Assembly: GCF_020921035.1 (NCBI RefSeq) | Contig: NC_063150.1 | Coordinates: 23,607,826-23,671,825 of the forward strand | From: Rhodamnia argentea | Taxonomy: Eukaryota > Streptophyta > Magnoliopsida > Myrtales > Myrtaceae | Reading direction: 5' to 3' | DNA: 64,000 nucleotides | Part shown: piece after piece, positions 1-38,631 of the stretch | Layout of the letters: each line of letters starts with the position of its first letter | How positions within the stretch are numbered: position 1 is the stretch's first letter | The notes under the pieces: generated by a model | What the model saw: only the letters and a program-made list of their open reading frames with translations | Told to the model about the DNA's origin: nothing | Databases searched by the model: none | Translations under genes and position numbers: made by a program

Positions 1-618
1 CACGACAAGCAGCGACCTAGCAGTAAAACGCCATCTCAGAGCAACATAAAACCTTACAGCATAATGCTAAAATTCAATACCTGATAACATAACTAGCTCC
101 TACCATGAAAATGTCCTAATCCCCACAGGTAATCGGGCAAAACAGGCTTTTGAAATGTAAGAGACAGAAACCCCATTGTTCAGGCGAAAGATTGAAACTT
201 TAGCAAGGTAATCACTAGCATTTTTCAAGTTCAGAACGTGAAAAACAGTAAAAATGACAAGACAAACAACAATCCCCACAAATCTAAAGGGAGGAAGGAG
301 TTATAGACTGAAACATGCGGAAAAAAAATCTAAAATACCAAGAAAAAATCGAAAATAAACGAAAAATGCAAGTAAAAATGGGACCTTTATGCAAAGACTT
401 GATGATGATGAGGAGGAGATGCAGAGATGAGAAAGAACAGAGATGATCGCAGAGCCACTATCAACGCGTGCACAGCTAAAACTTTACCCAGCTTGAAAGG
501 AATGCCTTACCTCGAGGCTCTGAGGTTGAAGATGGTTGAGAACTTTCTGGGTCTGTATTCCAACTTTGTTCTTTTGCTCTCCGAAGTTTTTCTGAAACGA
601 GGAAGAGAGGAGATACTG
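1..618 (-). other. 5' leader and leader intron of an off-window DUF7081-type gene (copy 0)
   Basis: The first ~618 bases match, base for base over long stretches, the sequence just upstream of gene A (from 17801), gene B (from ~24130) and gene C (from ~33245). By alignment to gene A, the start codon would lie about 17 bases off the left edge. A leader intron is visible on the minus strand: donor after ...CTCGAG at 510 (GTAAGG) and acceptor ending CTAG at 17. The other three copies have the same intron. The leader is cut at 618 by a transposon insertion. Short ORFs here are leader sequence, not genes. Confidence 0.7.
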
Positions 619-1287
619 AGCATGTTTGGTTCAACGGGGCTCTAAAGTCCTTAGCCAAATACAAATAGCTATTGATTTTTTTTTTTGCTCAATTTTGAGA
701 AAATGTAATTGTATTTCTAAGAGCTCTTAAATCTTTAGCCCAAAACACCTTTAGAGATATAAGTTGCATTTTCAAAATGGAACTAATTTTTTTTTTTTTT
801 TAACTTTGTCACCTCCACCTACCACCACCCATCGCCGCCCACCGATCGCCGTTGTCGGTGATCCGTTGTCGACCACCGCCGACCGCCTCCGACGACCATC
901 GCCCACGGACCCTTGTCGCCGTCGATGACGACCGCCGTCCACCGACCGCCGCCTCGCCACCCGCCCGACCTCCGATCGCCACCGTCACCCGCCGATTGTT
1001 GCCACCACCGACCGCCATTGCCACCGGCCACCGCCCGCCACCGACCTTGCCGCCCATTGTCGTCCACCGTCGCCGGTCAACGGTCTCTTTTTTTTTTTTT
1101 TTCAAAAAGTAAAAATACTTCACAAAGTATAATTTTCACCAAATAGCATTCACATCAAAATTGATTTCCAATGTATTTTTAAAATACAATTTATTAAATA
1201 CTACTTACATTTTGAAAAAGACCCTAAGTTTTAAAATATTTACATTTTTTCAAAGTTGTTTTGTCAATTGCTGAACTAAACAGGCCC
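619..1287. mobile_element. MITE with GC-rich core (Tourist-like ends)
   Basis: The terminal inverted repeats are imperfect: GCATGTTTGGTTCA on the left and GCCTGTTTAGTTCAGC on the complement of the right end. ACTG flanks both sides (615-618 and 1288-1291). The homologous leader of gene A has one ACTG at 18438-18441 and no insert, so that is an empty site. The core (about 820-1085) is a low-complexity run built from CCACCGCCGACC-like units between poly-T tracts. A second, longer copy of the family is at 28316-29160. TGTTTGGTTC-type ends are typical of PIF/Harbinger (Tourist) MITEs. Class assignment is an inference; the insertion itself is clear. Confidence 0.75.
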
Positions 1288-1329
1288 ACTGTCTTAGTAG
1301 TACTACGAACTGAAATGACACTTTTACCC

Positions 1330-1335
1330 TGCATG
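1330..1335 (-). promoter_or_regulatory. Conserved RY-type element (CATGCA) upstream of array leader
   Basis: A TGCATG core sits in a block, CTTTTACCC(C)TGCATGTGC, found at the same relative place upstream of gene A (18481-18486) and gene B (24765-24770) and again at 26575-26580. In gene C the core has drifted to TGTACG (33923-33928). RY elements are known B3-factor sites in seed-expressed genes. Whether this one works is an inference from its position and conservation. Confidence 0.35.
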
Positions 1336-1394
1336 TGCACGCGGAGAATGAAAACATAAAAGAGTTGGCTACCAACATAACTCAACATAGGCTG

Positions 1395-1640
1395 ACCCTT
1401 TGCATGATGACCGGTTGGGAGGACGACTACAGTTTAATGCTTGTCCTCACCCGTCTCCCCAGGATGTTCTGTCGAGGGAACCTTTCTCCAGCTGAATGGA
1501 GCGAAGAATGTTTCGACATCAGCATCCGGAGATCGTGAAAATGTACAACTTTTAAGTGATGGTCCGCCTTCCGACTCACCACACCCAAGTGTTGCCTGGA
1601 CCTGGCCAATCTAAGGGTCTAAGAGAAAATTAAACGTGAT
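1395..1640 (-). pseudogene. Decayed DUF7081 first-exon fragment
   Basis: The minus strand matches the first exon of genes A-C through diverged sequence. The stretch around 1480-1530 (ACCTTTCTCCAGCTGAATGG) parallels the exon part encoding FFASFSWMVPS, and 1588-1612 (AGTGTTGCCTGGACCTGG) parallels the part encoding WPNPGDTW. Related decayed copies are at 6945-7145, 18725-18770 and 25880-26200. No frame is open through it. Family assignment rests on the intermediate 25.9 kb copy, which links it to the intact exons. Confidence 0.55.
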
Positions 1641-2394
1641 TCACAGGTTCGTCTTGTAGGAAATAGGTTCCCATTCGTATCATTTAATTACTCCCTAAAG
1701 CCGGATAATCATAAAAAAGAAAGAACTTTAATTTTCCTTTTCAGACACGTGAGGCAACCGATCGAACAACGTTCTTTATTTTCTACTTACAACAATCCAC
1801 CCGCCGGTTCCTATAGAAGCGAAAGTGATTTGTTGAAATTGCGCCGTCATTTTCGAAGGCTAACACCACCTTTTATGCTAGCATTGCTCTAGAATTTTTT
1901 GCAGTTTGATGGTGTCAAGAATCAAAAATCCATTACAGGAACTCTGTTAGAATGCGACATAAACTTACCAACGACAAATTTGAAAATGACACGATCTGAT
2001 GCCTGAAATTTCAATTAGAAAAGAGAACCTCTATAGTCACCTTTCCCCATATTTACCTTATTTTGTTAACAAAGGGAAATTGCAGAAATGATCGACATGG
2101 ATATGATAACACGACATGAGTCGACAATCTTAAACCTGGAGAAGACGCAGCTTGGTATCATATTGCCTAAGCATAATCATCTTTCATCTAGTCTATAAAA
2201 TACTCATATGATCAAAAAGCTGCTATCTTTCTTTTTTTAATTTATTTATTTTGTGAGCAGAGAATCATGCATCGTAAGATGAACAGTGTTTGCTCTTCCA
2301 ATGTCCTAAACAAGTAAGGCTAATACTCCAAGGCGAAAAAAATAAAAAACATTGCAGAAATAGCAAGTTTAAATTTAAGCACAGATATCCTGAG
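1641..2394. other. Intergenic, no gene seen
   Basis: AT-rich spacer. No ORF, RNA gene or repeat that I can support; only short T and A tracts. Confidence 0.5.
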
Positions 2395-2631
2395 TAGACG
2401 TGGCCGGTTCCGGTTCAGAAACTAGCGGTTTCGATTCCGGTTCTGGTTCTTAGGCCCAACGGCTCTTTTCTCCCGGGCCTTGTCCCTTTTTATTTTTTAT
2501 AAAATGAGTCGGAACCGGCCTAGAACAGGCGGTTTCAAGGGCCAATTCCGGTTCCGAATTGGAACTATGAGCCCGATCAACGGGCCGGTTACAGATTGAT
2601 TTCGGGCCACGATTTTATTTGGCCATGTCTA
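2395..2631. mobile_element. hAT-like MITE, GGTTCCGG family
   Basis: It is flanked by a perfect 8-bp direct repeat ATCCTGAG (2387-2394 and 2632-2639), the duplication length typical of hAT transposons. The terminal inverted repeats are TAGACGTGGCC and TAGACATGGCC (the second on the complement of the right end). Inside it is rich in CCGGTTCCGGTTC runs in both orientations. There is no transposase coding, so it is non-autonomous. Confidence 0.85.
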
Positions 2632-2814
2632 ATCCTGAGACGGGCAAGAGCAGTGAGACCCACCGAATGTCATGCCTGTTCCTAATACTTAATCCGCTAA
2701 TGCCAGGCAACTTCTGAATGGCGCATTCCTAGACCATGTGATTGGTCTACTACCTAGCAGTTGTAAAGAAAAGACCGCAAATCACTGAATTGACATGGAC
2801 GTGCAAAAGATTTC

Positions 2815-3230
2815 AAGGTCTCTTGCTAAGTACTTGAGTTCCTCTAGGTCCTCCGGGGAGATCAAAGAAGGGAAATCCCAGGCAAGGAGGGATCAGACCC
2901 TCCTGCGACGATAAGACATTTCATTATCGACATTAGAGCCGATGTCAGGCGGAGGAGTTAATATCCCGGCTTCATCTACGGGTCGAGAAAGAACATCCTT
3001 CAGGGATTGGACATGGTCATTTAATTCGTCTGCACACAATTTCTGGATGAGATCCGCGGACTTCTCCAGGTTTGGGAGTCGCACTCGCTCTACAGTTGTG
3101 GGAGATGGGAGTTGAACTTTAGCAAGAGAAGCGTCCTACAGATTGTTCTTAAAGTTAGAGTCACTTGTCGAGCCTCCAGATGTGTCTGTTGCAGTATCGT
3201 CCTCCAAGGACTTTTAAGTCAATCACATAA
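2815..3230 (-). pseudogene. Decayed DUF7081-gene second-exon fragment
   Basis: On the minus strand a 63-codon open stretch (2893-3084) reads like the middle of exon 2 of genes A-C: SLKDVLSRPVDEAG and PPPDIGSNVDNEMS align to the intact SLEHILSQHDDETQ and PFTFVGSEMAEEMS. The nucleotide match extends to ~3230, where a TCGTCCTCCAAGGACTTTTA stretch parallels the exon region encoding the acidic serine-rich segment. Divergence is much greater than among A, B and C, so this is an older fragment. Confidence 0.6.
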
Positions 3231-4089
3231 TCTTCGTCGGTGCGGCAGAGAGTGATTACACAAAAAAGTATCTAGAGAGAGCCATAAAAGTTTCATCGAC
3301 GACGAATCAAATATGAAATGGTAAAATTAGTTGTTTACACGCGAGAGGTAAAGTCAGTGGCAAACACAAGATTGGAAATAAGGAAACTTTAAGTAATGCG
3401 ACTAATAAGGAACTCAACATGAAAACTGGATTATGCTCCAGGATATGCGAAGAACCAAAAAAATTCTCAAATTCAAAATTGAAAGGGACGGAAGAAATCT
3501 GTTCTTTACACAAACAAACATAGACGGAAAAGACTCCAGAGGCTTACTAGGGTCAAGTTTGTTCCGGATGAAGACGAAACGGTAAGAACAGAACATCACA
3601 AGCCAACATAGAATGCATACATTCAAGCTCAGAACACAATGAGGAAAATAAGGTAAAATCCGGAAAAGTGAACAGGGGAAACGTTGTAGCTAGAACTAGG
3701 ACTCACGAGATTGGTCTGCCGCTTCACTAGAAAATCCGTCTACACTGCACCACAATAAACGGGTCAGGGCGTTCGGGTTTTGTGCTCGAACTGGCCTTTC
3801 ATTTCTTGAGTTAGCACCGAAAATGAGGAGGAAAAGTGAAAGAAGTACATGAATGCTCATTTTATTATGTACATGTTGCTCTTGATGGGTCGAGACACGC
3901 TGTATCGGACAGATGGTAATCTATGGACGACAAATGGTTCAAGGAATGTGACAAAATGGCATTCGTATTGCTTAAGAGACTAATATATGTCCAACCCTTT
4001 AAATAGTGATAGTATAATCGCATGTTCTGGTGAATTAATATTGAATTGGTGTCTCCTCAAGGGTCGAACCCAACCTTTTAGGCAATAAG
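3231..4089. other. Intergenic, no gene seen
   Basis: No supported gene. Short minus-strand ORFs here show no recognisable family and no conservation with the array units. Confidence 0.45.
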
Positions 4090-4413
4090 TAGGAGCGAGC
4101 AAAAAGAATCGATCGGATAAGCCGGTTTGATCCGATTCTCAGTCCCATAAAAATGGAACCGGTAATTGTCGATCACGTTCCCGGTTCCAAGGGTGGATCG
4201 CTTGGACCAAACCGACAATTCTTTTTAGTTTTAATTTTATTAAGAAATCATTTAAACACTTTTATTGTTGGGATTACTTCTACATATTTAAAATGTGAAC
4301 AGATGTTTCAAGCATATGAGACCGATCTCACTAGATTGCACGGAATCGGATCGGATAGATCCTGTCTCTGTTTCGAGGTGGGACTGAACTGGGCCGCAAA
4401 CGGATCACCCCTA
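4090..4413. mobile_element. hAT-like MITE, GGTTCCGG family
   Basis: The flanks are GCAATAAG (4082-4089) and GCGATAAG (4414-4421), an 8-bp duplication with one mismatch. The ends are TAGGAGCGAGC and, on the complement of the right end, TAGGGGTGATC. The interior has GGAACCGG/CCGGTTCC-type runs at both ends and an AT-rich centre. The 100-codon ORF across it (4153-4455) is repeat-derived and not a gene. Confidence 0.8.
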
Positions 4414-4429
4414 GCGATAAGTTGCGTCC

Positions 4430-4735
4430 TCGCTTTTGTCTCCTTTTCCCGGTAGCAGGTGCGAGACGGAAGGTACGCGGTCGGAGCTGTTGCTTTTTTC
4501 CACTTTGGGGCTTACGGACAAGGCAATGATTCTTGAACCGACAGGTACGGCCGTCGCTTTGCTGCTGTCTCGAGAGTCGAGTCTCGCTTCTGCACGCGAC
4601 GCTTCAGCAGCTGCAGAAGCAGCTTGAAGCTCAAGCTTTGACCATGACTCTCTGGTTGCTCTCGCGGATTGAGCTTTGAATGCAGGATGTTACTGCTCGA
4701 GCTCCCCGATTCACCTAAATCAAACAAAGAAAAGA
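4430..4735. repeat. Duplicated segment shared with 27.89-28.13 kb
   Basis: The segment around 4505-4720 matches 27900-28125 at low to moderate identity, including CGACAGGTACGGCCGTCGCTTTG-like and GACGCTTCAGCAG-like stretches. It belongs to the segmental duplications of the left half. No protein family is recognised in either copy. Confidence 0.5.
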
Positions 4736-5496
4736 ATTTTAATTAGTCCAGTTAAAAATAGGCATGTAAATTACTTGGGATGGAGATTGTCATATAATGT
4801 GAAATATGAGCATATCCATGTAGAAATCATTTTCTCAAAATAATTCAAGTACGTTTGTTTCGCGAGAAATAAATGATTTGAAAAATAATTTTTTGAAAAT
4901 AATCGTTTGTGTCACTTAAAAAAAATGAACGAATAATTTTTTTTCTTATTGTCCACCAAAATGTTTGGGCATAAATTATTGTCCATAATGGAAAAAAAAA
5001 AATTGTTGACTAATTATTTCAAACGAATGAAGAGATTATTTTTACGAAAATATTTTTTGAATCATTCATTTTTTCGAGAAACAAATAGAGCCTAAGTATA
5101 AATATTTATTCTTTGCAAAATTGGGATGAAGATTTTCACGAAGTGGTTGATTTCCATGGATAGAGGGACCGCGCTTGTATGGTCAAACAAAGAAAAGAAT
5201 TTTAATTAGTAACATTACAAATCAACATGTAACTTATATAGGATGGAGATTGCGATATGATGCGAAATAGGAGAATGTCAATGTAGAAATCAGCACGAGC
5301 TCGTCATATCTCGACCCCATTTTTTACTAGGATGTAATACCTAATTCTAAGAGTCTAAGGAGGTTGGGGGGGTGTGGGGGGTGGCGTGTTCGAGGTTCTG
5401 AAAACTCGGAGCCATACCAATAAGGTAGTTCGAAGATAGGACATATATTCCATCCACACCAAACACCCCTGACAAATGCACAGATTTTTGAAGACT

Positions 5497-5498
<2 letters not shown>

Positions 5499-5638: not shown

Positions 5639-6162
5639 AAGGGTTAGTACCATGAAAAACTCCAACCTGGTACACCCGTAACAAATTTACCATAAATTAT
5701 TTTTTTGACCCCAAAAAATCTCAAATTGGTGCATTTGTGATAGATTTACCTCAAATTAATACACTTGTGACAAATTTACCTTCTATTAGTTTTCGTTAAA
5801 TTTAACTGTCAAATTGCTGAGTTGATGACATGCGACAGTTGATGGGTATACTAGTTTTAGGTTTTAACCATCTGTTTGTCATAGGTTTATTAATTTGAAA
5901 TTTTTCGTGATGTTAGCTCAATTTAACGGAGGGTGAATTTATCACGGGTGTACCGGTTTGGGGTATTTCGTGATCAAAAGAATTAGTTTTGGGATAAATT
6001 TGTCACAGATATATCGGTTTAGGATTTTTGGTGGTCAAAAAAATAATTTGGGGTAAATCTATCACAAATGTGCTAGTTTTGAGTTTTTCGTGGTAAAAAA
6101 AATAGTTTGGAGTAAATTTATCATAAGTGTACCAGTTTATAATTTTTCATGGTATTAACCCT
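5639..6162. mobile_element. Foldback-type MITE with internal tandem repeats
   Basis: The left end GGGTTAGTACCATGAAAAA is the inverted complement of the right end TTTTTCATGGTATTAACCC. Each arm is built of ~50-bp units (a 'TGGTACACxxGTGACAAATTTACC' idea followed by 'TTTTTGACCACxAAAAATC'), in opposite orientation in the two arms. The centre is short and unique. The same family is at 10628-12180 (interrupted), 12181-12492 and 34918-35440. I could not identify a clean target-site duplication. Confidence 0.7.
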
Positions 6163-7980: not shown

Positions 7981-8189
7981 CTATGGGCGGGCCACGATGA
8001 TTCTGCAGTGGCAAGACCGATTCAAAATCAGCACGACCTTAACAAACTGATCTTTCGTTTTTTTTTAAGTGGGATTTAGCACCTAATAATGGACAATTTG
8101 TTATTTTCAATTTACCATCTTTTTCATCTAATAAGTAACCGTTACATTAGAAACTAAAATGTTAAGAGTCCCTTGGAAGCACTCATTAA

Positions 8190-8533: not shown

Positions 8534-8574
<41 letters not shown>

Positions 8575-8657: not shown

Positions 8658-8665
8658 CTCATTAA

Positions 8666-15618: not shown

Positions 15619-17784
15619 TCAGCCTGATTTCTCAAAGGAGAACCCTTTGAGAGGCGTGTATCTCGCGAGAATCTCAGCCATTCGCTTTTCGGCAGTTTTC
15701 TTCTTCATTTCCCATGCTGGGATTTCAGCACTGGCAGTCTTGATCTCTCGCGCGACAGCTGATATAGAGCTTGCCGTGATTTTCTGCTCAGCAACCACCT
15801 GATCTTTTGCCTTATTCTTCGACTCAAGGTCACGAACAAGTTCGGCTTTCCTACACTGAAGCTGCGCAATTTGTTCATCTATTTCTCGCACAAGAGATGA
15901 CTTGGAATCTATCTGAGACCGCAATTCCCCTGCTCCCTTCTTCAGCTCACTGAACTCCCTCTTGATAGAAGAAACCTTTTCCTTCATGGCCCGAAGATCT
16001 TCAAAAAATTTGTTAGCCTGCTCAGCAATTCCCTTAGTGCATAGAAAAACCTCGCCTGCTTTGGGGATTTCTTCGACCAATTTCAACTTAAGCAATTGAT
16101 CAACAGTCAAGATGGGATCAGTACCGAGCTTCTCAACTGAATGACTAATCTCTTCCAAGTACTTTGAGGACAGCAAGCACGAGAAATCCAGGGCAAGAAT
16201 GGAAGAAAGTTTCCTGCGATGAGTAGACATTTCCTCTGCCATCTCAGAACCTACAAAAGTGAAAGGAGTCCGTACCTGAGTTTCATCATCGTGCTGAGAA
16301 AGAATATGTTCCAAAGACTTTCGACAGTCATCAACCCCTTCTTCACAAAACTGAGCATGAAGTTCCTCAACTTTTTGCACATCTTCTGCCTCAGAAGCAT
16401 TGGTTGCATAGAAGCTAGAGCCAATACTTTGGTCAGGAGCAACGTCTTCAACATCAACTTGCGACTCAGAGCCACATTTTGAATATCCACTTCCATCACT
16501 TGTGCTACCATCCTTCAGGGAACTCAAGTCAATTACCGACTCCTCATCTCTAATGTCGGCTTGAGCTGATATTTTGTACGATTGTCGGGTTTTGTGCCTA
16601 GGGAAGGCTTGTGATGTAGCTGGTCTCGATTTTTTCATCCTCTGGGAATTACAGGGGGCCTTGTTTTTCCGCTTAGATGCAATTTCGTCCCCTGGTACCT
16701 GTGGAAAGAGATCTGGATGCAATTCTGCATGTCAGAGTGATCCAAAAATAGCTACACCGGAACAAAATGCCAAAACTTTTTCAAAATATTGGGACAACCA
16801 AGAACTTGAACAGCATTTTAATTTAGCTAGTCTTGGCTCAACATCTTTAGGCAACATGGCCGCCAGTGTACATTTCTCTGATAACAAAATCATTAAACCA
16901 GAATACATAAATAAGATCTATTACCTCTGAGAATGTCGCTGGCAAATGAAAAGGGCTTTCTCTGGAAATTGAACCGGAAAAGGCGATAGTATGTTGAGTC
17001 ATTAAAATCTAGGCCTTAGCGATACTAGCAGTTATCTAGATTACAGACGGCATAGTGAAACACAGAGGAAACTTTCGTTTAAATCACTTCCCCACTAGAA
17101 GAAATGCCGGAACTCATGCTCGACTCAAATTCCCTTTGTGGAAATAACAGGATCCTCGGAGTAATTTGAAGCTCCGCATATTTGGTGTTCTCATTGCAGA
17201 CAGTAAAATGCAAATATAAAGACTATGGCTCTTCAAATTATTGTTAAAGCCATACTGACCAAAGAGATGAACAGAACACGAGCTTCCAAACAAGAGCTTA
17301 TTCAAACGTTATGATCATAGTAGACCTTCCACGTGCTGAAACATCAGACTTCCGAATTGAATGATGGGTCAACAATGAGATAACGAAAGCTATTTAAGAC
17401 ACAACCCTCACCTTCGTGCCAGTGATGCTTCGTAGAGGGAACCATCCAGCTAAAAGAAGCAAAGAACTCATTGACATCTGAGTTCGGAAACTGCAAAGAG
17501 ATATAGTGTGCAAGCGAAGGCTCGCTCTTGAAGCGATTATCACTGCCCTGGACACAGAGACGCTTTGGAAGATATAAGAACCTGTCTTTATAGAAACCAG
17601 AGCGATAGGTCCTCTTGCCGACCCACCAACGCCAAGTATCGCCAGGATTTGGCCAATCTTCGGGAGCATAAGGCAACCCTTCACCCACAGTATTAGGTTC
17701 GACAGGGTAGAGGCCTAATCTTTTCATCTTCATTGCCTTCTCTGTCAAAACTTCAATTCCAGTTGCTTGCTTCCCCTTCTCCAT
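15619..17784 (-). CDS. DUF7081-type coiled-coil protein, copy A
   Basis: Two exons on the minus strand, 17784-17412 and 16724-15619, joined GT-AG (donor GAAG/GTGAGG, acceptor ATGCAG/AATTGC), give 492 residues. The start MEKGKQ is shared by all copies. Residues ~34-120 form the conserved plant domain (GEGLPYAPEDWPNPGDTW, then SGFYKDRFLYLPKRL and FFASFSWMVPS), which I recall as DUF7081. A basic, nuclear-signal-like stretch (KRKNK...KKSR) follows at ~140-160, then an acidic serine-rich linker, then a coiled coil at ~366-480 (RAMKEKVSSIKREFSELKK onward). A 5'-UTR intron (18338-17817) is conserved in the array. The fold and splice sites are clear. Function is unknown to me; a nuclear scaffold or chromatin-associated role would be a guess. 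Confidence 0.8.
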
Positions 17785-18478: not shown

Positions 18479-19380
18479 CCTGCATGTGCATGGTCAGCAT
18501 CTTTTGGGAAAATTTCAAAAAAGGGCCCGAAATCCTTTTTATATCCCGTTCTTGTTTCCATGATAAGCAGCTGCTGATGAGTGGAATTAGTTGAAAATCG
18601 ACCTGCAATCCCTTTCTTGACCACGTTTTTTCCGAACATAGTTGGGGTTGGAGAAAGGAAATTACTTCCATAGATTAATGATGATGCTTGGATTTGATTG
18701 ACGTAGCTTCGCACCGGGATTGCTGATCTGCCACACCCAAGTGTTGCCTGGACTTGGCCAATCTGGCGGTCTTAGAGAAAATTAAATGTGATTTATAGCT
18801 TCCTGTTATAGGAACTCTGTTCCTGTTTGGTCTTGTTTTCTATTTGATTAGGGACTCATTTACAACCGACGAAATTCTACAAGAGTTACTTAAAACCGAA
18901 GGAGCAGAACGAAGCTTGGTCTAGCGCTCAAGACTTTTTCTTGTAGGTGGGGCGGAGAAATTCGAAAACAGATCAAACTTAATTGAGCCGAACCGCTGAG
19001 TTCAGTTCATGGGTTTGGCTTTTCGTGTCCAGTTGGTTCGTTTTGGTTATCAGGGAAAGCCGAAAGAACGACAGAGCAAGCTTAAGAAAACTGGATCTTG
19101 AACATATTTAACGCTCTGCATTCCTAAATCAATGGCGAATCAAAGATTTCAGACAGTCTATCTAAGCCTTCTTCACCAAGTTGAGTGTCAAGTCCCAGGA
19201 GTTTCCCAAGATATGGTGCCTCACAAGCATTGCATGAGTCGCAGCTTTGGTCAATAGAAATCTCCTCGCTGTCATACTCGGAGTCAGGGCCTCAAGTTGA
19301 ATCCCCCCCACCTGTATCGCTTGTACTGTCATTCACAGAGTACTATCGATTCAAAATCAGCACGGCCTTAACAAACTGAT
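18479..19380 (-). pseudogene. Decayed chimeric block, second copy
   Basis: Collinear with 6720-8060 but shorter. 18547-18710 is the TSR2-flank-like part, 18725-18770 the stump of a DUF7081 first exon (AGTGTTGCCTGGACTTGG, complement of the WPNPGDTW region), and 19150-19350 the second-exon-like part (IDQS and CNACEA-like sequence on the minus strand). Only the stump of the first exon remains, so a deletion separates it from its 6.9 kb sister. The 108-codon ORF at 18388-18714 crosses leader and block and is probably not a gene. Confidence 0.55.
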
Positions 19381-19499
19381 CTTTCTGTCTAAGGACAATT
19401 TGTTTTTTGTTTTTTTTCAATTCACTGTCTTTTTCGTCTAATAAGTAATCGTTAAATTAGAAACGAAAATATTTTCTCAGTAAATACAATGATTAAAGA

Positions 19500-20480
19500 G
19501 TCCCTCGGAAGCACTCGTCAACAATACATTTGTTGCTAAAATATTTGTCAAGTGAAGTGAATATAAGTTTTAGCTAACTTTAGAAAAATTGAAATTTCTC
19601 GGACATAAACCCTGTAAAACAACATAAATTTGCTTTTGTGGAATTACGTGATACGTATGTTGTAATTTTGTCGAAGTAGAATAAAAGGAGAAGTTTCTCT
19701 TTTTTTTTTCTTTTTCACGAGAATAGGGAAATTATGAAAGAAAATTTTAGAGTGCGTCGCATGGGGGCATTGGCTTAGGGAAAAGTCTTGCCTGACCGTA
19801 CACGGTACTAACCGTGTTAAGCTTGCTATAAGGATTTTTTTCACAATTTCTTTTTTTTTTTTTTTTTTTGGTATTTGCCCGCCACAAGTTTGTCGCTGGC
19901 ATTTGACCGTCCATTGTCAAATAACAGCGAGTAAACCTCTTAGGTAAGACTTCTAAGTTGAAACTCATTATCAACACAATAACGAATGGCCATTAATAAG
20001 TGCCTTAGGGGCAATTTCTAAAATCTAAAAGGAGTACTTTAAATGAAGTCCTGATAAATAAATATGTGCTTTATAAGTTTTATCGATCTCTATTTTCTTC
20101 TCCTCAATCTATTTTTTTAATGTAACAAATTTTGATTTCTATTTAATTAGATATAGCTGAATTACATGTCATATAAGTAAGAGCTTATTATTAGATATAG
20201 TTGTAGGCTTATAGCGTTTGAAACATACAAAATCATGGCACGGATAACAGGTGCTGCTACAAACCTTTTCGTGTAGGTTTCAGGATGGGCATAATAAGAG
20301 CTTCAAGAGTAGGTTTTAAGGCTCCACTTGTTTCGCAAAAAATGAATCATTTAAAAGCTAGTTGATTATCGTAAACATCACTTGAATTAATTAGTCAATA
20401 AAAATATTTTTATAATCGGCAATAATTTGTGTTTGAATATTTGCATAGAAAATGAAAATATTTTTATAAGCTTGTTTCCT
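19500..20480. repeat. Array spacer, second copy
   Basis: Collinear with 8160-8189 plus 8666-9765, without the hAT-like insert found there. No gene seen. Confidence 0.65.
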
Positions 20481-21930: not shown

Positions 21931-24116
21931 TCAGTCTGACTTGTAAAAGGAGAACCCTTTGAGAGGCGCATATCTGGCAAGAATCTCAGCCATTCGCTTT
22001 TAGGCAGTTTTCTTCTTCATTTCCCATGCTGGGATTTCAGCACTGGCAGTCTCGATCTCTCGTACGACGGCTGATATAGAGTTCGCCGTGATTTTCTGCT
22101 CAGCAACCACCTGATCTTTTGCCTTACTCTTCGACTGAAGGTCACGAACAAGTTTGGCTTTCCTACACTGAAGCTGCGCAATTTGTTCATCTATTTCTCT
22201 CACGAGAGATGACTTGGAATCTATCTGAGACTGCAATTCTCCTGCTCCCTTCTTCAGCTCACTGAACTCCCTCTTGATAGAAGAAACCTTTTCCTTCATG
22301 GCCCGAAGATCTCCGAAAAATTTGTTAGCCTGCTCAGCAATTCCGTTAGTGCATAGAAAAATCTCGCCTGCTTTGGGGATTTCTTCGACCAATTTCAACT
22401 TAAGCAATTGATCAACAGTCAAAGGTGGGATCAGTACCGAGCTTCTCCACTGAATGACTAATCTCTTCCAAGTACTTTGAAGACAGCAAGCACGAGAAAT
22501 CCAGGGCAAGAATGGAAGAAAGCATCCTGCAATGAGTAGACATTTCCTCTGCAATATCAGAACCTACATAAGTGAAAGCAGTCCGCACCTGAGTTTCATC
22601 ATCGTGCTGAGAAAGAATATGTTCCAAACACTTGAGACAGTCATCAACATCTTCTTCAAAAAACTGAGCATGAAGTTCCTCGACTTTTTGCACATCTTCT
22701 GCCTCAGAAGCATTGGTTGCATAGCAGCTAAAGCTGGTACTTAGGTCAGGAGCAATGTCTTCAAGAGCAATTTGCGACTCTGAGCCGCATTTTGAATATC
22801 CACTTCCATCACTTGTGCTATCATCCTTCAGGGAATTCAAGTCAATTACAGACTCCTCATCTCTAATGTCGGCTTGAGCTGATATTTTGTACGATTGTCG
22901 GGTTCTGGGCCTAGGGAAGGCTTGTGACGAAGCTGGTCTTTATTTTTTCGTCCTCTGGGAATGACAGGGGGCCTCGTTTTTCCGCTTAGATGCAATTTTG
23001 TCCACTGGTACCTGTGGAAAGAGATCTGGATGCAATTCTGCATGTCAGAGTGATCCAAAAATAGCTACACCAGAACAAAATGCCAGAACTTTTTCAATAT
23101 ATTGGGACAACCAAGAACTTGAACAATGTCTTAAAGTTAGCTAGTCTCTGCTCTACATCTTTACGTATAAATGGCCACCAGCATACACTTCTCTGAAAAC
23201 AAAATCATTAAACCAGAATACATAAATAAGATCTATTGCCTCTGAGAATGTAGCAAACGGGTTTTCCATCAAAAGAGGCAAATGAACAAAGGGGCTTTCT
23301 CTTGAAATCGAACTTGAGAAGACGACAGTATGTTGAGTCGTTAAAATTTACGGGCCTTAGCGATACTAGCATTTACCTAGATTACAGAAAGCATAGTGAA
23401 ACAAAGGGAAAACTTCCATTTACATGACTTCTGCACTAAAAGAAATGCCGAAATTCATACTTGACCCAAATTCCCTATGTGGAAATAGCAGGGTCCTTGG
23501 AGTATTTTGAAGCGCCACATATTTGGTGTTCTCAATGCAGACAGCAAAATGCAAAAATAATGATTATAGCTCTTCAAATTATTGTTAAAGCCATACTGAC
23601 CAAAGAGATTAACAGAACACGCGCTTCCAAACTATATCTTATTCAAACGTTATGACCATAGTAGACCTCCCACGTGCTGAAACATCAGACTTCCGAATTG
23701 AATGATGGGTCAATAACGAGATAACGAAAGCTATTTAAGACACAACCCTCACCTTCGTGCCAGTGATGCCTCGTAGAGGGAACCATCCAGCTAAAAGAAG
23801 CAAAGAACTCATTGACATCTGAGTTCGGAAACTGCGAAGAGATGTAGTGTACAAGCGAAGGCTTGCTCTTGAAGCGATTCTTACTGCCCTGGCAGCGGAG
23901 ACGCTTTGGAAGACATAAGAGCCTATCTTGATAAAAACCAGAACGACTGGTCCTATAGCCGACCCACCAACGCCAAGTATCGCCGGCATTCGGCCAATCT
24001 ACAGGAGCATAAGGCAAACCTTCACCGCAACAATTAGGTTCGACTGGGTATAGGTTCAACTCCATTGTCTTCTCACCCGAAACTTCGCTTCCCGTTACTT
24101 GCTTCCCCTTCTCCAT
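21931..24116 (-). pseudogene. DUF7081-type gene, copy B (broken)
   Basis: Same exon plan as A and C: exon 1 24116-23753, exon 2 23037-21931, with identical splice-site sequences. Exon 1 is intact and keeps GEGLPYAPVDWPNAGDTW and FFASFSWMVPS. Exon 2 is broken three times: a TAA where A has TCG (just after QRTKK, near residue 154), a one-base insertion at ~22421-22428 (CAAAGGTGGG versus CAAGATGGG in A), and a second TAA replacing GAA after EMKKKTA near the C-terminus. Otherwise identity to A is high, so decay is recent. If transcribed it would make a ~153-residue product with only the N-terminal domain, which could in principle still be made. Confidence 0.85.
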
Positions 24117-25387: not shown

Positions 25388-26200
25388 TCACAATGCTTGT
25401 GTCCAATATAAGCAGGAAAAATTTGTATGCATGTTTTCCTCATCAATGCTCATCTTCTTTTCAGATAAGCCATCATCACGTCTCTCTGCTCTTTGTCGAT
25501 TGTCTTCGAAAGCCTTCATCGAGATTTTGCCTTTGAATTGCCTCTCATGATCCTCCCACCATGCAAGATCGATTTGGTATGATCTGAGATTTCTCCATGA
25601 TGGTATTTGACAAACGAAAAAGAAACATAGAAAATCAAGTGACATCTTTGTCCCTTGTTCTTGTTTTGATGATAAGCAGTTGCTGATGAATGGCATTAGT
25701 AGGAAATTTACCTGGAGTCACCTTCTTGACCAGGTTTTTCTACCACATGGTTGGGGTTGCAGAAAAGAAACTATTTTCATAAATCAGTGATAATGTTTGC
25801 ATTTGATTCATGCTTGGAAATGAAAACAGAGAGAGAGTCAGCAAACAACATTACTCAACATCTACGATCAGCCGATGTTGAGAGAATGGAAACCGTTTAA
25901 TGATCCTCACCATTTTTGCCGGGATGCTCCTTAGACGGAACCTTTTAGCTGAATGAAGTGGAGAATGCTTCAAAATCTGCATGCTGAAATCTCGAACAGA
26001 TGTAAAATGTAAGCAAAGGCATGCCTCTGAACACAGATGGCCCCGGAGGTGCTTCGAAAGATGCTTATGCCTATCTTGATGGAAACCAGACTTGCTGATC
26101 TGCCTTCCGCCCTGCCACACCTAAGTATCACCTGGACGTGGGCCATCTACGGATGCATAAGGCAAGCCTTCGCCTCTAGTGCTAGGTGGAACCGCGTTCC
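25388..26200 (-). pseudogene. Chimeric block, third copy, with best preserved DUF7081 exon fragment
   Basis: 25880-26200 is a DUF7081 first exon with many indels. The minus strand reads SKSGFHQDRHKHLSKHLRG where intact copies have SRSGFYQDRLLCLPKRL. 25665-25830 matches the region beside TSR2 exon 3. At 25388-25696 a 102-codon minus-strand frame stays open and includes SYQIDLAWWEDHERQFKGK; its C-terminal third recurs at 35902-36060 (EKxMSxDEE, then WTQAL and stop in both). This piece is also related to 27157-27273 and 37470-37590. I do not recognise its family. This block links the older fragments to the intact genes. Confidence 0.6.
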
Positions 26201-27156
26201 GCTAGCCCGGTTCCACAGCGGCTCTCTCTCTTCGATCAAGTGCAACGACTTCGCAAAAACCATCATTGATTACATATATCCCCAACCATGATACTGTGAA
26301 ATGATCTATAACACTGCACAATCAGACACATATCTGCTACAGATGATAAGCCCTAATCAAACTTGAAAAGTTGATTTCACACACAAACTGTTTCTCAATA
26401 TCCTTGAAGCTGCCAACTAACTCCAGAATGAAAAATAAATCATACTTAATGATAAGTGGAAAAACAATGGAGAAATACGAAGAAGATTATTCAAAGAAGA
26501 AAACATGAAGTCATATAGAGAATTAATATGATCCCTGGCTTCCTTTCATAGGAACACATATGACAATATTCCCCTGCATGTGCACAGTCAACATCGCTTT
26601 TTCATTTCTGCGGCCACAAACTTCGAATTGGTTCTCCCCTCTCTGAAGGCAGAGCAAATCCTGCAATTTTTCAATGCTGCACAACAAGCCCCACCTGCAA
26701 ATGTTCATAACCCCTCGCATAGTAGTGACCGTGGTGTTTACCAAACAATCTGATCATCATGAGCAATGCACTTACTAAGTAGATGTTTTGATATTCTATG
26801 ACAGGACATCACAGAAGAAAGCCAAGTCTTGGATCTATCGACCTACTTGGTGTATCTTGTTCAAGTGTTTTGTTTGTGTGGTTACATTTTTGTAGTTATA
26901 GGCTATAGCTAAGATGGACATTTGGGGAGCGAGGAGCGATGTTTAGTGCCGTGACAAAATTGCCAACTTGTATCTACCAGAAAATATGGTGATCTTCTTG
27001 AAGAACCGCGTCATAAGTTCTCAATAAGAAGCCTTAATTGATCATCAAGTAAAATGCCGCTTTTCATATCGAACCTCGACATATGCTTACGCAAAAAGAC
27101 GTAATGAACAGAAAAAGTTTACATGTTTTCCCTCGTCTTTTCTTTCTCTCTGCACT
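26201..27156. repeat. Duplicated spacer, no intact gene
   Basis: 26510-27070 resembles 36150-36530 plus 37040-37380 (shared CTGCATGTGC-type block, GAAATCACAGAAGA, ATAGCTAAGATG). It contains another RY-type TGCATG at 26575-26580. No open gene. Confidence 0.5.
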
Positions 27157-27655
27157 TTAATTGATTCCCTTGGACAACTTGCTACCAGATTTGGCCTTCA
27201 TAAACTGTCTCTCACGATCCACCCACATTGCCAAATTGATTTGGTCTGATATGAGAATCTCCCAGAGTGGCATGTAACAAAAGATAAGAAATCAAGTGAC
27301 ATCTTTATCTCTCGTTCCCGTTGATTAAGCAGTTGGCTAAGGGCGGGAATTAGTAGGAAACTTAGTTAACAGCAGTCCCTTTTGGTGTCAAGTTTTTCTT
27401 AGAGCAAGATCTCGGAGTTGCAGAGTTGTATGTTCTGCTGCAAGAACTAGTGATGCCCTTGCAAGTCCCCTGAATTCAATATCATGAGTTGTTCTGCTAC
27501 CTGCGAACTGTTCCACTCGTTATGTTCGAATACATCGGCGTACCCAAAAATAAAAAAGAAATAAAAACTTAGGCCAATGCATCATACCTCCTGAATGCTT
27601 CCATCCTCTATCTCTCTGTTGAGCAAGTTCTCCAAGTCCTCAACATACAAAGCTT
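27157..27655 (-). pseudogene. Partial TSR2-like gene (lacks first exon)
   Basis: Minus-strand exon 2 (27655-27588) reads EALYVEDLENLLNREIEDG and exon 3 (27500-27447) reads VAEQLMILNSGDLQGHH then stop, with splice sites equal to those of the TSR2 gene at 38 kb. Exon 2 lacks 24 bases (eight codons) relative to that gene. No exon 1, which holds the WGG motif, is found upstream. Downstream at 27273-27157 a 38-codon frame (MPLWEILISDQINLAMWVDR...) is conserved with 25.5 and 37.5 kb. I infer a non-functional duplicate. Confidence 0.65.
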
Positions 27656-28315
27656 CTGCCAAATCCGGATGAAGACAAGAATTTCTAAACAGAGCTGCAC
27701 GCTATTCCCTTTATTTTTAAGCAGTAAATCAGCCGATTAAAGTAAATTAGACACCATTGGACCAAAAAAAAAAGAAAAGTAAATTAGACACCAAGAAACA
27801 GCCTAGGAGTTCTGTAGCAGGCGAGACACAGTAGCAGGTGGGGAGATGTGAAATGGCCATAATAGCCCCCTGCATCATCGCTGTTGGCTTTTTCCATTTT
27901 AAGGCTTGAGGACAAAGGCACTGAGGCATGGCATAGCCAACCGATTTTCGAACTGACACGTACGGCCTTTGCTTTATTATTCTCTCCTCACGCGCTTCTG
28001 CGATCGTCCACCCACGCGACGCTTCAGCCGCAGAAGAAGCTTGAAGGCAAGACGGTCAATTTGTGAGCTGCCCCGGTTTTTTCTTTCTTTCTTTTTTTTT
28101 TTTTTGGTCAGATGAGCTGCCCCTTTCACCTAGATCAATTATTGGCCCCCCAAATATTACAAACTTAGCTAATTCTTTTTTAGAATGGTGAAATATTTCA
28201 CGGAACGATTGATTTGGATGAATAAAAAGATTGCCCTTATACAATGAAAGAAAAATTAGATTGGTAAAATTCACAATCGGTATATATCTTATATAGGATG
28301 AATTTTTTTGACTTA

Positions 28316-30897: not shown

Positions 30898-33230
30898 TCA
30901 CCCTGATTTCTCAAAGGAGTAACCTTTGAGAGGCGCATACCTGGCAACAAGCTCAGCCATTCGCTTTCCGGCAGTTTTCTTCTTCATTTCCCATAGTGGG
31001 ATTTCAGCACTGGCAGTCTCGATCTCTCGCACAACTGCTGATATAGAGTTCGCCATGATTTTCTGCTCAGTGACCACCTGATCTTTCGCCTCGCTCTTCG
31101 ACTCAAGGTGACGAGCAAGTTCGGCTTTCCTAGACTGAAGCTGCATAATTTGTTCATCTATTTCTTGCACAAGAGATGACTTGAAATCTATCTGAGACTG
31201 CAATTCTCCTGCTCCCTTCTTCAGCTCACTGAACTCCCTCTTGATAGAAGAAACTTTTTCCTTCATGGCCCGAAGATCTCCGAAAAATTTGTTAGCCTGC
31301 TCAGCAATTCCCATAGTGTGTAGAAAAACCTCGCCTGCTTTGGGGATTTCTTCGACCAACTTCAACTTGAGCAATTGATCGACAGTCAAGATGGGATCAG
31401 CCCCGAGCTTCTCAACCAAATAAGTAATCTCTTCCAAATACTTTGAGGACAGCAAGAATGAGAGATCCAGGGCAAGAATGGAAGAAAGCTTCCTGCGATG
31501 AGTAGACATGTCCTCTGCCATATCAGAACCTATGTAAGTGAAAGGAGTCCGCACCTGAGCTTCATCATTGTGCTGAGAAAGAACATGTTCCAAAGACTTT
31601 AGACAGTCATCAACATCTTCTTCACAAAATTGAGCATGAAGTTCCTCAATTTTTTGCACATCTTCTGCCTCAGAAGCATTGGTTGCACAGATGCTAGAAC
31701 TGATACTTTGGTCAGGAACGTCGTCTTCAAGATCAATTTGCGACTCAGTGCCACATTTTGAATATCCACTTCCATCACTTGTGCTATCGTCCTCCAGGGA
31801 ACTCAAGTCAATTACAGACTCGTCATTACTAATGTCGGCTTGAGCAGGTATTTTGTAACATTGTCGGGTTCTGCGCCTAGGGAAGGCTTGTGACAAAGCT
31901 GGTCTCCCCTTTTTCCTCCTCTTGGAATTACTGGAGGCTTCTTCTCTCTGCTTAGATGCAATTTCATTCAGTGGTACCTGTGAAAAGAGATCTGGATGCA
32001 ATTCTGCATGTCAGAGTGGTCCAAAAATAACTACATCGGAACAAAACACCAGAACTTTTTTCAAACATTGGGACAGCCAAGAAGTTGAACAGTATCTTAA
32101 ATTTAGCTAGCCTTGGCTCAACATATTTACGCATACATGGCCACCAGCATATACTCTCTTAATAAAAAAAAATCATTAAACCAGAATACATAAATAAGAT
32201 CTATTGCCTCAGAGAATGTAGCAAACAGATTTTCCATCAAAATCTGCAAATGAACAAACAGGGCTCTCTCTGGAAATTGAACTGGAAAAGACAGTATGTC
32301 GAGTGTTTAAAATTTATGATCCTTAACTGATACTTACTAGCAGTTACCTAGATTACAGACGGCATAGTGAGAAAAAGAGGAAACTTTCATTTCCATCACT
32401 TCTCCAATAGAAGAAAACCCGGAATTCTCACTTGACCCAAATCCCTTACGGAAGTATCAGGGTCCTTGAAGTATTTTGAAACTCCACATACTTGGTGTTC
32501 TAAATGCAGATAACAAAACGTAATCAGAAAGATTCCAAACCCTGAGCAGGGCTCATCCTTCCCCTCTGTGATTAGAAGTTACTAATAGTAGGTCTGATAG
32601 ATCGGGCAAGTTTGAACTGAATGGTCTAGATTTACTATTTTCTGGAGCATCTTCTATCGCAAAACATCCAACCTTCTAACCAATATACTTTTTAAACGAT
32701 GTTAAAGCGATAACTCACCAAAGAGATTAACAGACAATTTGATCCCAAAATAAAGCTTGTACAAACATTATGACCGTAGTAGACTTTCCACTTTCAGAAA
32801 CATCAGAATTTGGAATTGAATAACGGATTCAAAACGAGGTAAATGAAATTAAGACTTCATTCTCACCTTCGCTCGAGTAATGCCTCGTAGAAGGAACCAT
32901 CCAGCTAAAAGAAGCAAAGAACTCATTGACATCTGCGTTCGGAAACTGCAAAGAGAAGTAGTGTTCAAGCAAAGACTTGCTCCCAAAGCGAGGATTACAG
33001 CCCTGGCAGCGGAGGCGCTTTGGAAGATATAAGCGCCTGTCTATATAGAAACCAGACGAATTGGTCCTCTTGCCGACCCACCAATACCAAGTATCGCCGG
33101 GATTCGGCCAATCTACAGGAGCATAAGGCAAACCTTCACCAGAACAATAAGGCTCGACGGCGTATAGATTCAACTTCATTGCCTTCTCACCCGAAACTTC
33201 ATTTCCCGTTACTTGCTTCCCCTTCTCCAT
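30898..33230 (-). CDS. DUF7081-type coiled-coil protein, copy C
   Basis: Exons 33230-32867 and 32003-30898 (donor GAAG/GTGAGA, acceptor ATGCAG/AATTGC) give 489 residues, open throughout. The N-terminal domain keeps GEGLPYAPVDWPNPGDTW, SGFYIDRRLYLPKRL and FFASFSWMVPS. One aromatic position differs from A and B (DTWYWW instead of DTWRWW). The basic stretch, acidic serine-rich linker (STSDGSGYSKCGTESQ) and C-terminal coiled coil are all retained, and lengths differ from A only by three residues near the N-terminus. Most changes from A are conservative, so I infer a working paralogue. A leader intron is at 33766-33261. Molecular function unknown. Confidence 0.8.
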
Positions 33231-34917: not shown

Positions 34918-35440
34918 GGGGTTAACACGATGGAAAATCTCAAACTGGTATATCCGGAACAAATTTATCCCAAACTATTTTTTTTACCACGAAAAATCCT
35001 AAACCGGTATACATGTGACAAATTTATTTTAAACTATTTTTTTTTTACCACCAAAAATCTTAAACTGGTACTTTTATGATAAATTTACCTTAAACTAATT
35101 TTTTGACCAAGAAAAAACTCAAACTGGTACACTTGTGACAAATTTACCCTCCGTTAAATTGGATTAATACTATGAAAAATCTCAAATTGATAAACCAGTG
35201 ACAAACAGAGGGTAAAAATCTCAAACTGGTACACCCGTGAACCGCCACATGCCATCTAACTTAGCAATTTGATGGTTAGATTTAACGAAGACTAACAAAA
35301 GGTAAATTTGTCATAGATATACCAGTTTGGGTAAATTTCTCAGAAGTGTATCGGTTTGGGATTTTTGGTGGCCAAAAAAATAATTTAGAATAAATTTATT
35401 ACAAGTGTATTGGTTTGGGATTTTCCATGGTATTAACCCC
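34918..35440. mobile_element. Foldback-type MITE, third complete copy
   Basis: Left end GGGGTTAACACGATGGAAAA and, on the complement of the right end, GGGGTTAATACCATGGAAAA. Same ~50-bp unit as at 5639-6162. At ~35161-35240 a second GGATTAATACTATGAAAAA start appears inside, suggesting a partial internal duplication or nested copy. Confidence 0.7.
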
Positions 35441-35889: not shown

Positions 35890-36310
35890 GATTTTGTAGA
35901 ATCACAACGCTTGTGTCCAAATATGTATGTATGTGTCTTCCTCGTCAGTGCTCATCATCTTTTCAAATATACCATCTTCACTTACTCTCTTCTCTATATA
36001 TTGATTGTCTTTGATAATTTTCTTCAAGATTTTGCCTTCAAAGTCAAGTAACTTCTTCATCTCCTCTCCTTGTTTTGATGATAAGCAGTTGCTCATGAAT
36101 GGAAATAGTCGGAAATTTTACCTGCAGTCCCTTTCTTGACAAGGTAAATTACCCCTGATGACAGTATGAGCCCCGCATCGGCATGGTCGGCGTCGCCTTT
36201 CCGTTTGTATGGCCACGAAGTACGAAGGCAGAACAGTGCCTGCAAATTTTCAAGGGTGCACAACGAGCAGTACCTACAAATGTCCATAACCCCTCACATA
36301 GGTGGTGACT
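35890..36310 (-). pseudogene. Chimeric block remnant, fourth copy
   Basis: The minus-strand frame 35902-36096 shares the start SNCLSSKQ, the motif EKxMSxDEE and the end WTQAL-stop with the frame at 25388-25696, but lacks the middle (QIDLAWWEDHERQF). Followed by the GGAAATTTTACCTGCAGTCCC stretch typical of these blocks. No DUF7081 exon remains. Confidence 0.5.
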
Positions 36311-36529
36311 AACGTTTTCTGAACAAACCTAATTGTTTTTCTAAGAGTAATGTATTTACTATTCATATGTTTTGATATGCTATAAGGGGAAATCACAGAA
36401 GAGAACCAAATATTTTTGTTAGTGTTCCTCTTTTATGTTTTTTGTTTGTGTGATCACATGTTGTAGCTATAGCTAAGATGCGCATTTGGCGAGTGATGTC
36501 AAGTGTGTGACAAAATTACAATAGTAATA

Positions 36530-37038
36530 TGTTGGGAGTGCGCAGCAGAAGTCTGATACTTTCATCCGGGGAGATCGCTAAGAGGGAGCCCAAGTCCGAG
36601 CCCGTTAACATATCCAATCGAACCTACCTTCACTCAAAAGCTTAAACCAAAGCCAACTTAAAATACCGAGCCCGTTAACATATCCAGTCGAACCCACCTT
36701 CACTCAAAAGCTTAAGCCAAAGCCAACTTAAAACACCGAAACATATTAAAGGCCCACCAATAACTTAAAACACCGAAACATATTGAAAGCCCACCAATCA
36801 ACCATCGGCTCTGATACCATTGTTATGAGTGCAGAGCAGAAGTCCGATACTTTCATCCAGGGAGATCGCTAAGAGGGAGCCCAAGTTCGAGCTTGTTAAC
36901 ATATTCGGTCGAACCCACCTTCACTCAAAAGCTTAAGTTAAAGAGTTATGGGCCAACTTGCATATATTAACTGCTTCACACCACATTAATTCTCCAATGT
37001 GGGACTTTTCTAACACAATTCACACGTGCATTCTAACA
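36530..37038 (-). mobile_element. Miniature LTR retroelement (TRIM-like), rearranged
   Basis: A 5-bp duplication TAATA flanks it (36525-36529 and 37039-37043). The outer ends are TGTT...AACA. On the minus strand a 218-base LTR (37038-36821) ends in ...CATAACA and is followed at once by TGGTATCAGAGCC (36819-36807), the standard complement of initiator Met-tRNA used as a primer-binding site. The second LTR (from 36530) matches over its ~130 terminal bases but lacks the far end, and internal ~90-base blocks are duplicated. No coding capacity. Confidence 0.8.
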
Positions 37039-37727
37039 TAATATTTACCCGAAAAAAAGCTGTGTTCTTATTCAAGAACCTGGTCATGAGTTTCTTACAA
37101 GATTTTTTTCACTGATATCATGTGGCAACGTCGTCATGGAGCATGCTAAATACTATTGATTCTATCACCGTCCCGAAAACGAGAAAGTTTCTGAAAATAG
37201 GACATACAATAGGTGATGGTATTGTGGTCGGTGATGGTACTGTGATCGGTACTGCCGTGCCAAATAATCATCAGTAAAATGCCAGTCTTCATGTCGAACA
37301 TCGAGTTATGACCAAATCAAAGGGACACAACATTATTTTTCATGTTTGTCAAGCCTAAAGCGAAAAGGGATCTTATGGAATACAACATGCCTGTATCCTA
37401 AATTAGCAGGAAAAATTCACAAGTTTCCCTGAACTTCTCTTTCTCTCTGCTATTTAAGCGGTTCTCTTCTAAACCTTGCTACCAGAATTGGCCTTCAGCA
37501 AATGCATCTCGTGATCCATCCACATCGCAAAGTTGATTTGGTCTGATGTGAGAATATTTCCCGAGTCGCATGTGACACTTGCCGATCTTGTTTAATGTCG
37601 ATGATAAGCAATTGGCTAAGGAATGGAATTAGTAGGAAACTTAACCACTTGCAGTCCCTTTTCCTATCAAGTTTTCATAGAACAAGAGATGGGTGGTTTG
37701 GAGAGTTCGTGTGTTCTGATGCAAGAA

Positions 37728-38631
37728 CTAGTGATGTCCTTGCAAGTACTCTGCATGAAACATCATGAGTTGTTCTGCGACCTGCGAATTGCAGCACTGG
37801 TTATGTTCGAACGCACTGGATTGTCCGAAGATGAAAGAAGTGAAAAAAACTCAGGGCCAATGCACAGTACCTCCTCAATGCTTCCATCCTCCATCTCTGT
37901 GTTGAAAGAGAGCAGCATGCATTCGTGGAGAAAATTCTCCAACTCCTCAGCATACAATGCTTCTGCCAAGATGGGATAAAAAACTCTAATTTCTACAAGG
38001 AAGTGCACGCAATTTCCCTTCATTTTTAAGCCGTAAACCAGTCCATTGAAGTGAATTAGTAAGCTTCAGACATTTTGATGGCTCAGTCACATGCAGATCT
38101 TACCTGTGTTGGTTAATTTGCAGGGCGAGTTGATAAGTCTCTTTGTCTTAGTACGAATTTAAACATAAAGACTTGTTAATTCTCCGTATGGATTGACTTT
38201 TACATCTCACCTTTTACTTCATGTAAAACTCGTGAGCACTTTTGACTTTTTCTAAAGCGAAACTCTTGAAACTTTTACAATATCCAAGCATTACATTTGG
38301 AATCACATGTATTTATTTGATTATTTTCCGAAATTTGAATGGTATTTAAAATTTTTGGGAAAAAGTAAACAAAAATTCGTTTGTTCTCGTTGAAGTCCAA
38401 GTAAATACGCTTTCGATACAGACCTTTCGAGCAAGAGAAGCAAGAGAGGATATCAGCAACAAGCTGGTGAGACTTCTGGAGAGAATCGTTGCCGCCCCAT
38501 TGGTTATGGATGGCTAGTTGAAGGCCGCGCCACCGCGAAAGGAGGGTGGCAATCCCTTCCCGGAGGCGGGCCACGGCCTCAGGCTTCTCGTGGCCAACGC
38601 AGCGCCGTTTGGTCGGGAAATCGGCCTCCAT
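37728..38631 (-). CDS. TSR2: Pre-rRNA-processing protein TSR2 homologue (short form)
   Basis: Three exons on the minus strand: 38631-38424, 37962-37871, 37781-37728, all GT-AG, giving 117 residues. Exon 1 has LREGIATLLSRWRGLQLAI then NQWGG, the WGG motif of the TSR2 family. Exon 2 has EALYAEELENFLHE and EMEDGSIEE. Exon 3 has VAEQLMMFHAEYLQG. TSR2 is known as a ribosomal protein eS26 chaperone and 20S pre-rRNA processing factor in yeast. The frame stops after LQGHH, so the acidic C-terminal half usual in plant TSR2 is missing here. The same stop is present in the partial copy at 27.4 kb. Either this is a shortened paralogue or a further exon was missed. Family sure; completeness not. Confidence 0.75.

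Follow-up and report, generated by a model that had tools for sequence, protein, structure and literature searches.

Array organisation and gene models

Contig NC_063150.1 of the Rhodamnia argentea assembly GCF_020921035.1 (here C1) carries what is probably a birth-and-death tandem array of two-exon genes without a PHD domain. These genes are paralogues of DUF7081-PHD_Oberon-DUF7615 genes and are read from one strand; some copies would be under selection and others have decayed. We analysed the stretch C1:23607826-23671825 ("the window", 64,000 nucleotides) and searched the genome of 346.66 Mb, which has 11 large contigs of 23.9–37.3 Mb. In the following, A to D denote copies in the array, E and F dispersed copies, and P1 and P2 the DUF7081-PHD_Oberon-DUF7615 genes left of D.

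A tandem array of a DUF7081 coiled-coil gene had been proposed from the window sequence alone, together with a self dot-plot as a check. Self-BLAST of the window gave the corresponding off-diagonal lines at A, B, C and the left edge, all in the same orientation. B matched A with 89.2% identity over 2984 bp, C matched B with 86.7% over 1904 bp and C matched A with 85.6% over 1867 bp, while positions 1–618 matched the 5' flank of A with 81.2% over 649 bp. Approximately 650 bp of 5' flank are conserved between copies. All array genes are read on the minus strand. Their start codons at 17784 (A), 24116 (B) and 33230 (C) provide spacings of 6.33 and 9.11 kb, in agreement with the ~6.3 and ~9.1 kb of the original prediction.

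The copies are described by a two-exon model, in which exon 1 extends from the ATG to the donor AAG/GTGAG (the slash marks the exon border), the intron spans about 0.7–0.9 kb in A–D, and exon 2 runs from the acceptor GCATCCAG/AT to the stop. The expected sharing of splice sites holds for all six copies A–F, which have the same donor and acceptor. Together with the reading phase, these conserved sites suggest that exon 1 is spliced to exon 2. Gene A (15619–17784, 488 amino acids) and gene C (30898–33230, 485 amino acids) are open. Gene B (21931–24116) is broken by three lesions in exon 2: an in-frame stop at about 22940–22942, a one-base frameshift near 22432 and another in-frame stop at about 22000–22002. 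Two open copies and a broken one had indeed been predicted, as had the leader of a fourth copy at the left edge. The flank found there is real, but it belongs to a complete and open gene of 488 amino acids, D, whose start codon lies 17 bases left of the window.

The array features are:
1..618, minus strand: 5' flank of gene D (self-BLAST); the D exons, C1:23607437-23607809 and 23605500-23606593, lie just left of the window
15619..16712, minus strand: gene A exon 2, tail and stop, the last ~130 residues a predicted coiled coil (gene model, structure prediction, heptad test)
17412..17784, minus strand: gene A exon 1, from the ATG through DUF7081 to the donor AAG/GTGAG (gene model; Pfam PF23299, 126.7 bits)
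21931..23025, minus strand: gene B exon 2, broken (gene model; two in-frame stops, one frameshift)
23753..24116, minus strand: gene B exon 1, open, DUF7081 (gene model; PF23299 match over cut-off)
23871..23894, minus strand: switch point in B between a C-like 5' part and an A-like 3' part, inside DUF7081 exon 1 (site patterns)
30898..31991, minus strand: gene C exon 2, tail, open (gene model)
32867..33230, minus strand: gene C exon 1, DUF7081 (gene model; PF23299, 118.8 bits)

Domain content and copies beyond the window

A Pfam profile search, also suggested with the original prediction, identified the N-terminal part of A and C as DUF7081 (PF23299, curated cut-off 27 bits), and the tails of A and C reached no cut-off. 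Searching the genome for DUF7081 resulted in 12 matches, each of which exceeds the cut-off. A, B, C, D, F, P1 and P2 account for one match each and E, in two halves, for two; the others are a relic upstream of B and two short matches that lie about 1.4 Mb from the array. Ten of these thus belong to the array or to E and F. The two short fragments are located at C1:22.14 and 22.16 Mb. Since a closer look with tblastn finds further relics, e.g. at window positions 1464–1683 and beside F, the count of 12 is a lower bound.

Left of the window the array runs on along the same strand, with P1 and P2 further left than D. In both genes DUF7081, PHD_Oberon and DUF7615 occupy successive exons; the domain scans were made on the PHD exon for P1 and on the DUF7615 exon for P2. 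According to three-frame translations P1 is broken, its DUF7615 exon being interrupted by a frameshift and stops, and P2 is open with all three exons uninterrupted. PHD_Oberon has seven matches in the genome, among which only those of P1 and P2 lie together with DUF7081.

The DUF7081 domain of gene A is 49% identical to that of P1 and 46% identical to that of P2. When the array and the fetched copies were searched by tblastn (expectation value E up to 0.01) with the PHD exon of P1 or with DUF7615 of P2, only P1 and P2 themselves were matched in each case. A Pfam scan gave no DUF7615 match in the tail of C at E up to 10 or in that of A at E up to 1. On sequence grounds, A–F are PHD-less paralogues of the DUF7081-PHD_Oberon-DUF7615 genes, with the N-terminal DUF7081 in common and the other two domains without trace. 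A derivation of the tail from the DUF7615 or PHD region was not supported: in a profile comparison with the DUF7615 end of P2, 43 of 60 shuffles scored as high. A literature search found no mention of DUF7081, PF23299, DUF7615 or PF24590.

Two of the six copies A–F found in the genome search are dispersed. E on contig 8 is broken, and F on contig 9 is open and encodes 472 amino acids. Both match D over nearly the same stretch, which in window numbering extends from about -3640/-3662 to +618. Outside the limits of this match, additional array-derived sequence is present at the contig 9 locus. Contig 8 furthermore harbours two tail fragments, at 8.42 and 8.55 Mb, with no DUF7081 hit within the fetched stretch. 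F is located at C9:25550045-25552095, and its DUF7081 differs at several positions that are kept in the other copies.

The tail and its coiled coil

The tail comprises about 363 residues in A, C and D and ends in a predicted coiled coil of about 130 residues. The coil of A exhibits a heptad period of 3.5 that was reached in none of 5000 shuffles, and the same peak was obtained for the other three open tails. A structure model of the tail, based on a two-sequence alignment, had a mean predicted local distance difference test score (pLDDT) of 56.6 and a predicted template modelling score (pTM) of 0.27. It contains one predicted helix at tail residues 226–354, along which the block-mean pLDDT was 48 at the start, 68–97 over most of the length with a rise up to the peak value, and 57 at the end. 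All residues before position 226 but one remained below 50. The heptad pattern thus coincides with a long helix in the prediction. Weak Pfam matches of the tails (the best being ATG16 in C with 25.0 bits at a cut-off of 33.7) were set aside as coiled-coil noise.

Selection on the open copies

For the six pairs among the open copies A, C, D and F we determined the ratio of nonsynonymous to synonymous substitutions per site (Ka/Ks). Over the full coding sequence Ka/Ks was 0.55–0.64 in all six pairs (Fisher p at most 0.0021), with Ks between 0.19 and 0.28. The last 214 tail codons gave 0.33–0.39, again significant in every pair (p at most 0.00078). The A–C comparison, which the original prediction had put forward as a check, resulted in 0.57 with a bootstrap 95% interval of 0.41–0.78 and is therefore not near 1.

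Neutral evolution was simulated from the coding sequence of A in 2000 runs, using substitutions only and no indels. At 0.10 substitutions per site a mean of 5.5 stops accumulated and 0.4% of the runs stayed stop-free; at 0.05 per site the stop-free fraction was 5.2%. Judged from their divergence, A, C, D and F show purifying selection, which is clearest on the coil.

Exchange between copies

To characterise gene B we used the ungapped sites at which D, E and F agree. Of these, 84 split A, B and C, with 46 sites grouping A with B, 31 grouping B with C and 7 grouping A with C. When the sites were divided at the best break in B, the 5' side had 23 BC, 3 AB and 2 AC sites and the 3' side 8 BC, 43 AB and 5 AC sites. 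None of 5000 permutations reached the observed maximum chi-square, and at the chosen break the Fisher test of AB versus BC sites gave 5e-10. Gene B is a mosaic of a C-like 5' part and an A-like 3' part, i.e. exchange between copies has occurred. In addition, a 9-base deletion in exon 1 is common to B and C and absent from A, D, E and F, and on its upstream side B has a partial TSR2 copy that matches the TSR2 gene upstream of C. This arrangement fits unequal crossing-over that involved one A-like and one C-like copy.

Proposed explanation and alternatives

The probable course of events is that the array was reshaped by unequal crossing-over and/or gene conversion, with A, C, D and F maintained and B, E and several older fragments left to decay. 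Open and broken copies stand head to tail and share their flanks, next to decayed ones, and the repeated birth and loss that had originally been predicted is borne out. The prediction missed, however, P1 and P2, the domain difference, the existence of dispersed copies, a second TSR2 copy and the fact that B is a mosaic. At the protein level the coil would mediate dimerisation. The PHD-less proteins would compete with P2 or modulate it, as they would share a DUF7081 partner and would have no PHD reader. Because A–D are without the PHD superdomain but have DUF7081 and the coil, we use dimeric competitors or modulators of P2 as a working model, which we regard as possible though rather doubtful.

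Exon 1 and the tail might instead be separate genes or leftovers, i.e. a short DUF7081 protein terminating shortly behind the donor, plus a tail that is translated from a start of its own. Exon 1 does run on to a stop shortly past the donor (150 amino acids from stop to stop in A), and constraint is weaker on exon 1 than on the coil. Against this, the donor AAG/GTGAG and the acceptor GCATCCAG/AT recur in six of six copies, all four lesion-free copies (A, C, D, F) have one open frame across the join, and the sites are kept although intron divergence among A, B, C, D and F amounts to 11–23%. We therefore consider separate genes improbable. Neither do we think it likely that the copies are functionless, such that a decaying array would retain a few frames open by chance. 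Such decay would account for the broken state of B, E, P1 and the older fragments and for the parts in which Ka/Ks is not significantly below 1, but not for a full-length Ka/Ks below 1 in all six open pairs, nor for four open frames of 472–488 codons, in each of which 5.5 stops would be expected under neutrality at 0.10 substitutions per site.

The copies on contigs 8 and 9 match D over a nearly identical stretch, as would be seen if the gene were cargo of a transposable element of the gene-capture type. A comparison of the two ends of E, F and D, with 600 bp taken around each approximate end, however, found no inverted match above 9 bp (best E 1.1), and the copy number is low. Moreover, the contig 9 locus carries array-derived sequence outside the limits of the D match, for which reason segmental duplication is better suited, and transposon cargo appears quite improbable to us. 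The repetition itself, and nothing further, could point to an assembly artefact with allelic copies placed in a row. Alleles would be expected to differ less than the approximately 10–25% in DNA seen between the copies over long stretches, and the relics between the copies differ as well, so that we attach next to no probability to such an artefact.

Several observations weigh against the birth-and-death reading or limit what follows from it. The first 110 tail codons have Ka/Ks values of 0.63–0.97 and DUF7081 has values of 0.62–1.35, significantly below 1 in none of the six pairs in either part. Pairs with F reach 0.92–1.35 in DUF7081 (F versus D 1.35, interval 0.61–3.81), and the DUF7081 of F looks relaxed. 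Pairwise Ka/Ks also takes in constraint that is older than the duplications, so that loss on one recent branch is compatible with the values obtained. The switch in B would equally result from gene conversion, and splicing of the two exons is a model. A genome search for a donor gene of the tail returned 14 matches, all of them in A–F or in fragments, including one short piece on contig 8 without a stop of its own. Change from a PHD-bearing ancestor is the direction we infer; a comparison within one genome does not polarise loss versus gain of the PHD.

Relics, repeated units and neighbouring genes

Further features between and beside the array genes are:
1464..1683, minus strand: decayed DUF7081 fragment (tblastn E 3.9e-8)
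1817..5292, no strand assigned: segment repeated in pieces left of D, at about -6431 to -3714 in window numbering (five pieces, 79–82% identity)
2830..3210, minus strand: decayed tail fragment, 31% identical to A, from a copy that is older and divergent (tblastn, genome search)
18535..20465, no strand assigned: flank upstream of A, pieces of which recur at 6707–9716 (self-BLAST, 85–93% identical)
25924..26192, minus strand: decayed DUF7081 fragment upstream of B with one internal stop (genome profile search, tblastn)
27111..27750, minus strand: diverged partial TSR2 copy (self-BLAST, tblastn)
37868..38655, minus strand: TSR2 gene at the right end of the array, two open reading frames (ORFs) matching WGG (PF10273; 47.6 and 31.2 bits, cut-off 26.8)

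The two DUF7081 fragments and the tail fragment are remnants of older copies, which had been anticipated between the genes. An older, more decayed type of unit flanks D on both sides, at 1.8–5.3 kb and at about -6.4 to -3.7 kb. This unit was itself duplicated, since 1817–5292 recurs in five pieces left of D.

The B unit (21.05–27.75 kb) matches the C unit (30.2–38.06 kb) in pieces by self-BLAST, over the gene, the upstream sequence and up to TSR2. Contrary to what had been assumed, the TSR2 gene is not single, given the second, diverged partial copy at ~27.1–27.75 kb. This copy is 75.9% and 79.4% identical in DNA to 37410–38059 (self-BLAST) and was found by tblastn with a 35-residue query at E 1.9e-6. 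In this copy the second WGG exon is retained, free of stops and with a gap of 8 residues; window self-BLAST gave no counterpart of the first TSR2 exon at 27.1–27.75 kb. The repeated unit would thus have carried the gene of DUF7081 plus tail, and the B and C units TSR2 as well.

A repeat measuring up to ~520 bp is dispersed through the array in both orientations (self-BLAST, ~75–80% alike), at 5641–6161, 12172–12441 and 34919–35439 and in shorter pieces; it is possibly a small transposon. Inverted copies of about 80% similarity are present for window positions 9925–10389 (self-BLAST), and a related piece flanks E on contig 8. To the right of the array, on the plus strand, lie a PPR-DYW gene at 40177–42691, in which an apparent GT-AG intron at ~41784–42228 interrupts the E motif and both parts are open, a seed maturation protein (SMP) gene region at 46045–47195, in which two ORFs match SMP, and an ORF at 54288–54719 that matches the Ovate transcriptional repressor family.

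Comparison with known systems

In its C-terminal half DUF7081 has a motif order (F-x-S-K ... Y ... S-F-x-W) similar to that of the methyl-CpG-binding domain (MBD, PF01429). We compared its profile by hhalign with an MBD profile of five sequences, namely three of the four from this genome (the one on contig 11 was left out) and two from PDB listings. The alignment covered 34 columns with E 0.0051 and scored above all 100 column shuffles, but its probability was only 7% and there was no Pfam MBD match. Of two PDB searches with DUF7081, one returned two chance-level chains, neither of them an MBD, and the other none. An AlphaFold model of DUF7081 from three window sequences had a mean pLDDT of 35.6, too low for use. 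The resemblance to MBD is weak and unproven. As a speculation that we consider unlikely to hold, DUF7081 could be a chromatin module of a diverged methyl-CpG-binding-like type, and the array could serve as a nursery for dimeric decoys without a reader. These genes would have retained the module and a coil and lost the histone-reading PHD, each new copy would titrate the targets of P2 as the only complete reader left, and exchanges in the DUF7081 exon would make new combinations. If the MBD-like guess were true, it would provide an entire DUF family with a function open to testing.

The PHD superdomain of OBERON (OBE) proteins is reported to bind methylated histone H3 tails (PMC9640981), and OBE3 is described as acting with WUS (PMC4873020). 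The OBERON proteins of Arabidopsis are related to the genes described here only via the PHD_Oberon domain of P1 and P2, a domain that A–F are without. P1 and P2 in turn are alike to A–F in the N-terminal DUF7081 and in belonging to the same array, whereas A–F differ by an unrelated tail and by having neither PHD_Oberon nor DUF7615. The locus is a compact natural case in which a chromatin-reader-type gene lies beside PHD-less relatives and open, broken, mosaic and dispersed stages are all visible, and its paralogues show which parts of a DUF7081 gene selection keeps.

Tandem birth-and-death gene families in plants comprise head-to-tail copies, pseudogenes, mosaics and dispersed copies. The array of R. 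argentea resembles them in all four respects; the domain difference between array neighbours is its unusual feature.

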